The translations under genes and the position numbers were made by a program. DNA of 64,000 nucleotides, taken from the NCBI RefSeq assembly GCF_024345415.1, contig NZ_JAGQBB010000007.1, forward strand, positions 1-64,000, read 5' to 3'. The DNA is from Synechococcus sp. Tobar12-5m-g. GTDB lineage: Bacteria > Cyanobacteriota > Cyanobacteriia > PCC-6307 > Cyanobiaceae. Below the pieces are notes generated by a model. The model saw only the letters and a list, made by a program, of their open reading frames with translations. It was not told the origin of the DNA and did not search any database. Below, piece by piece: positions 39,053 through 40,857 of the stretch; within the stretch, counting starts at the first letter, position 1; each line of letters opens with the position of its first letter.

Positions 39053-40114
39053 TCAGGTGGCGGCTTTGGTGGCGGTCCAGACCCGGGTCATGAAATGGGA
39101 CTCCGCCTGAGTCGCGGCGAATCCCGCCTGCCTCAGGCGCCCATCGATGCCATCGCCGATGTAATCGCGGTAGTAGGGCTCGTGGAACATCCGGCGGAAG
39201 TTCTCCATCGCCGGCATGAATTCGGGCGAGTCAGCCATCTGAACGGAATCGGCCATCACCAGGGTGCCGCCAGGCTCCAGCAAGCGGAAACACTCCGCCA
39301 TCACCTTCTGGCGGGCCGCTCCGGGAAGTTCGTGCAGAAGAAACACACAGCTCACCGCCTGAAAGGTTGCATCGGCGAACGGCATCGCTTCCGCATTGGC
39401 CTGAACAAGCTGGGGCAGCTCGCCGGGCAACTGGGCCAGGAAGCGGTTGGCCTCCCGCAGATAGGCGGTGGACAGATCGAGGCCCACCAGCTGAACGCCA
39501 GGAAGAGCGGCCCGCAACTGCCGCAGGGTCCGGCCGGTGCCGGTGGCCACGTCCAGCACCCTCAGCTGGCCGGGGGTGCGGCTGGAGAACGCCCGCAGCC
39601 CCCGCCGCAACGGCGCCAGCAGGCGGCGGCGCATCGGGTCAGCCGTTCCGTTGAAGAGGATCTCCACCTGCAGGTCGTAGAGAACGGCGGAGCGATCGCT
39701 CAGGTAGCCGTCGGTCTGGTGGTGGAAGTTCTGAAGGTAGTAGCCGGGAAAGTCGGCGGGTTCCACCGCGCGGGGCAGATCGCGCACTTTGCGCTGGCTG
39801 CGGCGGCTCCAGATGCTGGGCAGATCGAGCCAGACCAGGGGATAGCGGCTGGCCCACTCCAGCCAGGGAGCCTCGAACAACAGCGAAGATGGGTAAACCC
39901 CCCGCTCGGCGTCCTGCCAATCGATCTCCAGGAGCCTGTTCATCGAGGCGCGGAACTGCTCGAACATTCCCGGCGGAACCGGCACGGTCTGGGGCAGGGT
40001 TCCCGGCGCAAGCATCTCCAGGAGCCTGGTGCTCACTTCCTTGTGGGCCAGGCCCATCAGGCTCTTGCCCTGCTGCAGCGTCTGGTACGCGAGCTTGCTG
40101 ACCGGATCGGGCAT
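39053..40114 (-). CDS. Class I SAM-dependent methyltransferase
   Basis: A 353-residue protein. Its C-terminal half is a Rossmann methyltransferase with the AdoMet motif LRVLDVATGTGRTLRQL, the acidic residue in LVGLDLSTAYL and post-motif LLEPGGTLVMADSVQMADS. The N-terminal half (MPDPVSKLAYQTLQQGKSL, then FPGYYLQNFHHQTDGYLSD) is helical and conserved among cyanobacterial relatives; it resembles enzymes acting on small lipophilic substrates such as quinones, but the substrate is unknown. ATG 40114 is chosen over two upstream in-frame starts that run into a hairpin region. Confidence 0.85.
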   Translation of the reverse strand: MPDPVSKLAYQTLQQGKSLMGLAHKEVSTRLLEMLAPGTLPQTVPVPPGMFEQFRASMNRLLEIDWQDAERGVYPSSLLFEAPWLEWASRYPLVWLDLPSIWSRRSQRKVRDLPRAVEPADFPGYYLQNFHHQTDGYLSDRSAVLYDLQVEILFNGTADPMRRRLLAPLRRGLRAFSSRTPGQLRVLDVATGTGRTLRQLRAALPGVQLVGLDLSTAYLREANRFLAQLPGELPQLVQANAEAMPFADATFQAVSCVFLLHELPGAARQKVMAECFRLLEPGGTLVMADSVQMADSPEFMPAMENFRRMFHEPYYRDYIGDGIDGRLRQAGFAATQAESHFMTRVWTATKAAT

Positions 40115-40162
40115 CGGCTGGATCAGGGGTCTGAGCCTGGATTGGACCCCCATTCCAACGGA

Positions 40163-40210
40163 TCGGCCCTGGTGCCGCGAGCCGTCCTGGGCCGGCGGCA
40201 CCAGGGCCGA
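40163..40210. promoter_or_regulatory. 16-bp perfect inverted repeat upstream of apcF
   Basis: TCGGCCCTGGTGCCGC (40163-40178) is the exact reverse complement of GCGGCACCAGGGCCGA (40195-40210), with a 16-nt loop. It sits in the 224-bp gap between the divergent methyltransferase and apcF genes. No T-run follows on either strand, so it is not a simple terminator. It could be an operator, an mRNA 5' hairpin or a relic of a palindromic repeat. Confidence 0.6.
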
Positions 40211-40301
40211 CAGGACCTCGAAGCGAACCAGGCACCCGCGTAACCGTTTCTGTCGGATTCTTGAAATCCCATGGCTGGACAGGGTTCTTCCGGGTCGCAG
40301 A

Positions 40302-40310
40302 TGCTAGTTT
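40302..40310 (+). promoter_or_regulatory. Candidate extended -10 element of apcF
   Basis: TGCTAGTTT has the TGn plus -10 hexamer form (TAGTTT, 40305-40310). A start of transcription about 7 nt on would leave a short leader before the apcF ATG at 40339. No good -35 hexamer lies at 17 nt; TTGAAA at 40261-40266 is too far. Confidence 0.35.
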
Positions 40311-40338
40311 CCAACCCAGGTCAATGGATCTCCACGTC

Positions 40339-40857
40339 ATGCGCGATGCCATTACCGGCCTGATCGGTCGGTATGACCAGCTGGGGCGCTATTTCGATCG
40401 CGACGCGATCGACCGCATCTCCAGCTACTTCGCCCAGTCCCAGTTGCGCCTGGCGGCGGCGGAAATCATCAACCGTGATGCCGCCGACATCGTGCGCGAG
40501 GCCAGCCGGCGGCTGTTCGAGGGGGATCCCGAGCTGCTGCTCCCCGGCGGCAACGCCTACACCACCCGCCGCCTCTCAGCCTGCCTGCGGGACATGGATT
40601 ACTTCCTCCGCTACGCCAGCTATGCCCTGGTGGCTGGCGACCCCTCCATCCTCAATGAACGGGTTCTCAACGGCCTCGACGACACCTACAAGAGTCTGGG
40701 CGTGCCCACCGGACCCACCGTGCGCAGCATCAACCTGCTGGGTGATGTGGTGAGTGAGCGTCTCGAAGAGGCCGGGCTGGGGCCTGCCGAGGTGGTCCGG
40801 ATGCCGTTCAACCACATGGTCCGGGGGCTGGGCGCCACCAATCTCCGGGCCCGCTAG
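40339..40857 (+). CDS. apcF: Allophycocyanin beta-18 type core subunit
   Basis: A 172-residue phycobiliprotein of the phycobilisome core, part of the terminal-emitter trimer that hands energy to chlorophyll. MRDAITGLIGRYDQLGRYFDRDAID opens the chain, and Cys82 in ACLRDMDYFLRYASYALVAGD binds phycocyanobilin at the standard position, which supports this ATG over one at 40324. GPTVRSINLLGDVVSERL follows the family. In cyanobacteria apcF typically lies apart from apcAB, as here. Confidence 0.93.
   Translation: MRDAITGLIGRYDQLGRYFDRDAIDRISSYFAQSQLRLAAAEIINRDAADIVREASRRLFEGDPELLLPGGNAYTTRRLSACLRDMDYFLRYASYALVAGDPSILNERVLNGLDDTYKSLGVPTGPTVRSINLLGDVVSERLEEAGLGPAEVVRMPFNHMVRGLGATNLRAR

Follow-up and report, generated by a model that had tools for sequence, protein, structure and literature searches.

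Why does a perfect 16-bp palindrome stand between a methyltransferase gene and a phycobilisome core gene in Synechococcus sp. Tobar12-5m-g, and where did it come from? We addressed this question in a 64,000-nucleotide stretch of the genome (hereafter the window), whose relevant features are listed in Table 1.

Table 1. Features around the palindrome, in window coordinates
Feature	Position	Strand	Remarks
Class I SAM-dependent methyltransferase gene	39053-40114	-	353 aa from conserved ATG 40114; Pfam Methyltransf_25, E 7e-20
Methyltransferase upstream element	40150-40184	-	CATTYCARC[GC]GAT, ~11 nt, then GCCGCGAG (+ strand reading)
Palindrome left arm, TCGGCCCTGGTGCCGC	40163-40178	+	Ancestral, inside the methyltransferase upstream element; homologous stretch in relatives
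Palindrome loop	40179-40194	none	16 nt; contains extra GCC/GGC pairing
glnA-loss scar	40179-40237	none	Site of glnA in most relatives
Palindrome right arm, GCGGCACCAGGGCCGA	40195-40210	+	Left arm copied in inverted orientation; relatives show no clear counterpart
Conserved apcF upstream element, GCGTAACCGTTTCTGTC	40238-40254	+	Pattern match in 82/85 sequences; remaining 3 recognised by eye
apcF-like phycobilisome core gene	40339-40857	+	Pfam Phycobilisome, E 1e-48; ATG 40324 alternative start

A perfect palindrome in a divergent gap

The arms are perfectly reverse-complementary over 16 of 16 bp with a 16-nt spacer, and they lie in a divergent gap before apcF, both as the initial annotation had described; the apcF start is most likely at 40339, given the conserved N-terminus MRDAI. 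Allowing two mismatches extends the stem to 21 nt and shortens the loop to 6 nt. As RNA, a 76-nt segment folds to -47.0 kcal/mol on the plus strand (z -5.23) and -50.4 kcal/mol on the minus strand (z -4.56), and none of 200 shuffles folds as well on either strand.

A census of perfect inverted repeats (arms of at least 12 bp, loops of 3-40 nt) covered 464 kb of this genome, namely the window plus 20 non-randomly chosen stretches of 20 kb, some of them around glutamine-synthetase genes. It returned 15 repeats, of which the palindrome is the longest, followed by three with 14-bp arms. Order-3 Markov simulation of 9.28 Mb produced 80, 24, 2 and 3 repeats with arms of 12, 13, 14 and 15 bp and none with arms of 16 bp or more, which bears out the earlier judgement that the palindrome is far beyond chance; base composition does not yield perfect 16-bp arms. 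Repeats with arms of at least 12 bp are also more frequent than expected per 464 kb (15 versus about 5.5, or 109 in 20 simulated sets), and we therefore see a general mutational or selective excess in this genome, to which selection as well as mutation could contribute. A further perfect inverted repeat of the window, with 14-bp arms and a 14-nt loop, occupies 2264-2305.

Scanning both strands of 40000-40400 revealed no terminator-like and no sigma-70-like site. The palindrome shares a G+C-rich stem with intrinsic terminators but differs from them in its loop of 16, its position between divergent genes and its lack of a T run after the stem on either strand; the last of these rules a terminator out, as the initial annotation had maintained. 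Nor does the palindrome match a known structured RNA: no Rfam family reached its gathering score across 39800-40600 (two weak matches, E 0.92).

Dispersed palindromic repeats such as REP and MITE elements are also intergenic palindromes, and an element of this kind had been one of the original suggestions; unlike them, the palindrome is single-copy. A gapped hairpin pattern (loop 4-28) occurs at one place in this genome and at none in the three other genomes of the genus (one of four overall). Searching the genome for further copies of the arm, as had been advised, turned up no second gapped hairpin: single arms with one mismatch match at four places, all without a paired partner. With up to three mismatches, single-arm matches number 196 against 82-83 in a reversed control, a surplus that we read as codon-usage bias. 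The sole other match in this genome at E ≤ 0.001 (C12) is not palindromic and lies inside an open frame; we judged this and partial DNA matches in G064, G071, G074 and G076 to be due to chance, as all are short, GC-rich and inside open frames. Absence of the hairpin rests on the four genus genomes and on gaps read individually; a search of 148 other relatives, in which five candidates were scored in most of the genomes listed, carries little weight by its silence. The initial annotation had held that a mobile palindrome would be missing from related genomes and present at unrelated sites. Related genomes indeed lack the hairpin, while no occurrence at unrelated sites was found, and together these results therefore argue for a single local event.

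Conserved elements on either side

The methyltransferase, for which no NCBIfam model scores above its cut-off, has a conserved N-terminus (MPDPVSK in six of the seven aligned genomes, or the variants MSDPVSK and MPETVSK). A longer GTG frame reaching 40201 is non-coding, because the spacing between the start and the upstream element differs among sequences by lengths not divisible by 3. In all 43 sequences (43 of 43) the core of that element, ATTYCARC, lies before the conserved start at a distance of at most 75 nt, where shuffles predict 0.065; the core is joined by GCGAG about one helical turn further in 23 of the 43, and a stricter pattern matches 11 of 37. The left arm lies inside this conserved element. 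By contrast, the stretch containing the right arm aligns only weakly with the corresponding region of the relative G003 (score reached by 50 of 1000 shuffles), and not convincingly with that of G001 or G002. We thus take the left arm to be old and the right arm to be the newcomer. Elsewhere, at locus L203, the gap between the methyltransferase gene and glnA holds a 13-bp perfect inverted repeat of its own, AAATGGCCATTCC, with a 15-nt loop.

On the other side, the downstream gene, which we take, with the initial annotation, to be apcF, encodes a product scoring 208 bits against the NCBIfam apcB model, under the cut-off of 228; this fits an ApcB-like ApcF. The element GCGTAACCGTTTCTGTC, present as one exact copy in this genome, begins 27 nt beyond the right arm and stands 97-116 nt before the apcF ATG in the 82 pattern-matched sequences. 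Downstream of it lies GTG[CT]TA, possibly the -10 of apcF. No exact NtcA box (GTA-N8-TAC) was found upstream of apcF in 23 genomes, in a survey of N-termini and upstream regions whose apcF-start pattern missed 11 of 34 loci. Perfect arms of at least 10 bp occur in the glnA-apcF gaps of six of 80 loci (L132, L133, L134, L136, L137 and L163); five of these belong to a different inverted repeat, in the region conserved before apcF, and the palindrome is not among the six. That other repeat, CCAGATCCC-N11-GGGATCTGG, lies just upstream of the possible -10 in L132, L133, L134, L136 and L137, is perfect over 10-13 bp in some species and degenerate at 40262-40292 of the window, and looks like a candidate operator. 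Comparison of the apcF upstream region among relatives, another step that the initial annotation had recommended, showed that the palindrome is absent from all three other genus genomes and that a separate element is conserved. Its suggestion of a regulatory site specific to apcF is not upheld, as the exact hairpin is confined to one of four genus genomes and the conserved region comprises GCGTAACCGTTTCTGTC and the sequence downstream.

The palindrome lies at the scar of a lost glnA

Most relatives carry glnA, the gene for type I glutamine synthetase (GSI), in the gap that separates the methyltransferase gene from apcF. This is so in the sister pair G001 and G002 (473 aa in G002), and the intact product at this locus scores 633 bits against an NCBIfam GlnA cut-off of 429. 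All 80 named loci with apcF have glnA or a recognisable remnant before it. In Tobar12-5m-g and G003 the methyltransferase gene adjoins apcF with glnA absent between them, and neither genome has a GlnA anywhere at E ≤ 1e-120; the initial annotation, made from the sequence alone, could not have revealed this absence. Because the two group together (support 1.00 in a seven-taxon tree of two flanking genes) and both lack GlnA, one loss in their ancestor is the simplest account. The same clean loss is seen in G035 and G082, and likewise in G076 within its short contig.

The palindrome sits at this scar, next to its border with the old upstream region of the methyltransferase gene. No homology could be established between the inner scar and the glnA region of G001 or G002: alignment scores against glnA or its surroundings were reached by 17, 32, 86 and 96 of 300 shuffles. 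Among the other glnA-less gaps, the longest perfect arms are 7 bp in G003 and G082, with none of at least 7 bp in G035 or G076. Fold z-scores of these gaps are -0.27 (G003), 0.31 (G035), 1.09 (G076) and 0.24 (G082), against -4.54 in Tobar12-5m-g.

Origin of the palindrome

We consider it probable, with real room for doubt, that the palindrome is a lineage-specific inverted duplication, likely made by template switching and without established function. On this account, the common ancestor of Tobar12-5m-g and G003 would have lost by deletion the glnA that separated the methyltransferase gene from apcF. Later, after the split from G003, an error of replication or repair would have written 16 bp of the methyltransferase gene's upstream element a second time, in reverse orientation and 16 nt away; the simplest such error is a template switch to the nascent or the opposite strand. 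Alternatively, the error may have made a weaker inverted repeat perfect. The perfect stem may have been tolerated because it lies outside the conserved apcF element, and we infer that it lacks a function.

An old left arm and a new right arm together make a copying error by fold-back, whether a template switch or one of another type, the most likely mechanism. As described in excerpts of two papers, template switching creates perfect stems in one step and perfects imperfect ones (PMC8794818, PMC7202029), and it has been described for bacteria and for RNA stems (PMC7202029; PMC8794818). The template-switch or quasipalindrome mutations in these excerpts consist of a near-perfect reverse-complement copy adjacent to its source, with one arm old and the other new (PMC8794818, PMC7202029). 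Here, too, the copy lies beside its source, one arm is present in relatives, and the stem is perfect over 16 bp. Unlike such mutations, the palindrome comes without a progenitor strain, and the mutational step itself is invisible; the relatives compared are one genome per species, and none is close enough to preserve the state just before the event. The weak alignment of the right-arm stretch with the G003 scar might mean that both arms are old and slowly converged.

We think it unlikely, though worth keeping in view, that the stem is instead a functional structured leader or insulator that sets expression after the loss of glnA with its promoter, acting within the RNA of the methyltransferase gene or as a cruciform that forms between both divergent promoters. 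The stem is stable on both strands and occupies a divergent gap bordered by two conserved elements, and its perfect pairing suggests either youth or upkeep. Were transcription to start on its far side, the stem would lie in the methyltransferase leader, 49 nt before the ATG, and so stable a structure within 50 nt of a start codon could be used by selection. However, the hairpin is kept neither in the genus nor in the gaps of other glnA-less genomes, and it lacks both an Rfam family at gathering score and a terminator tail. We give a low probability to the view that the deletion of glnA itself made the palindrome by fold-back repair, with no later event. Its place within the scar, directly adjoining the old upstream region of the methyltransferase gene, speaks for this view, but G003 carries the same loss and the same GCGAGCCG junction without the stem; a deletion-made stem would therefore have to have eroded there, or the two losses would have to be independent.

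Inverted copies are a known type of artefact, and the palindrome could be a fold-back chimera from the library or assembly. We hold this to be very improbable, as the palindrome is inside a 121-kb contig of an assembly that is 99.97% complete, and the sequence to either side of it runs collinear with G003 over 2.2 kb. We give next to no credence to a mobile REP- or MITE-like palindrome, which has the shape in its favour and nothing else: there is one gapped copy, its left arm is ancestral, the C12 match is not palindromic, and no phage record is similar at E ≤ 1e-5.

Inverted duplication by template switching, our preferred reading, also has an improbable variant, in which the switch took place when glnA and its divergent promoter disappeared and produced a reversed duplicate of the methyltransferase element's inner half, now facing apcF. 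If so, the reversed copy could put apcF under the methyltransferase's regulator or insulate both promoters, and a control site would have been born in one mutational step at the scar of a gene loss. In its own right, the palindrome is a tidy natural case in which a perfect stem can be compared with an arm that is ancestral and with a gene loss that is dated.

Decay of type I glutamine synthetase in relatives

GSI has decayed several times at this locus in relatives that carry glnN. In G053 (L095, 2257-3647), glnA is frameshifted and in two pieces, a recent pseudogene. At 13 of 80 loci the glnA position holds a GSI-like frame with 41-44% identity to G002 GlnA, and at two of 80 one with 33-34% identity, with which G040 and G079 belong. 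The loci with such open but altered frames are L139, L140, a subset of L179-L200 (13 loci), L094 and L096; Synechococcus sp. ATX 2A4 and Cyanobium relatives are among the carriers of a remodelled GSI. The motifs EPEFF, HHHEV..GQQEL, NGSGMH and GNRSAAVRIP of intact GSI, which hold metal, ammonium and nucleotide contacts, are changed or deleted in both divergent groups, and some of the same catalytic motifs are altered in L168 (64%). A block, GEGT..LSQTARWY.GGLL, is nearly unchanged in the GSI-derived proteins. The two such proteins that we tested score 276 and 137 bits, below the NCBIfam GlnA cut-off.

Pairwise dN/dS is 0.24-0.50 in the 41-44% group (66 pairs from 12 of the 13 loci, L200 left out) and 0.29-0.33 in the 33-34% group (3 pairs), versus 0.11-0.20 among intact enzymes (6 pairs). 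Selection on the GSI-derived proteins of the two lineages is thus relaxed, yet purifying, and they are possibly pseudoenzymes with a regulatory role. Among the matches listed, we found no literature report of a GSI-derived protein without the catalytic motifs.

In the family genomes with a completeness of 95% or more, glnN (PF12437) is present in all eight without GlnA, a count that includes divergent and broken cases, versus 19 of 42 with GlnA (Fisher p 0.005, which is optimistic because the genomes are related). Tobar12-5m-g has glnN and two further proteins above the TIGR03105 cut-off, and may therefore have ammonium ligases besides that of glnN. Loss of glnA has been stated, in excerpts of the respective papers, for Pseudanabaena PCC 6903 (PMC6316151) and for freshwater sub-cluster 5.3 picocyanobacteria (PMC9361551). 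As here, glnA is missing in both cases and glnN (GSIII) is kept; these excerpts of PMC6316151 and PMC9361551 name neither the present genus nor the remodelled GSI proteins of other lineages.

The repeated decay of GSI matters more than the palindrome. In one ancient gene neighbourhood, in picocyanobacteria carrying the type III enzyme, the type I glutamine synthetase through which ammonium usually enters has several times disappeared, been disrupted or been stripped of key catalytic motifs. In some lineages the stripped protein persists under selection, and whether it has a regulatory job is directly testable.
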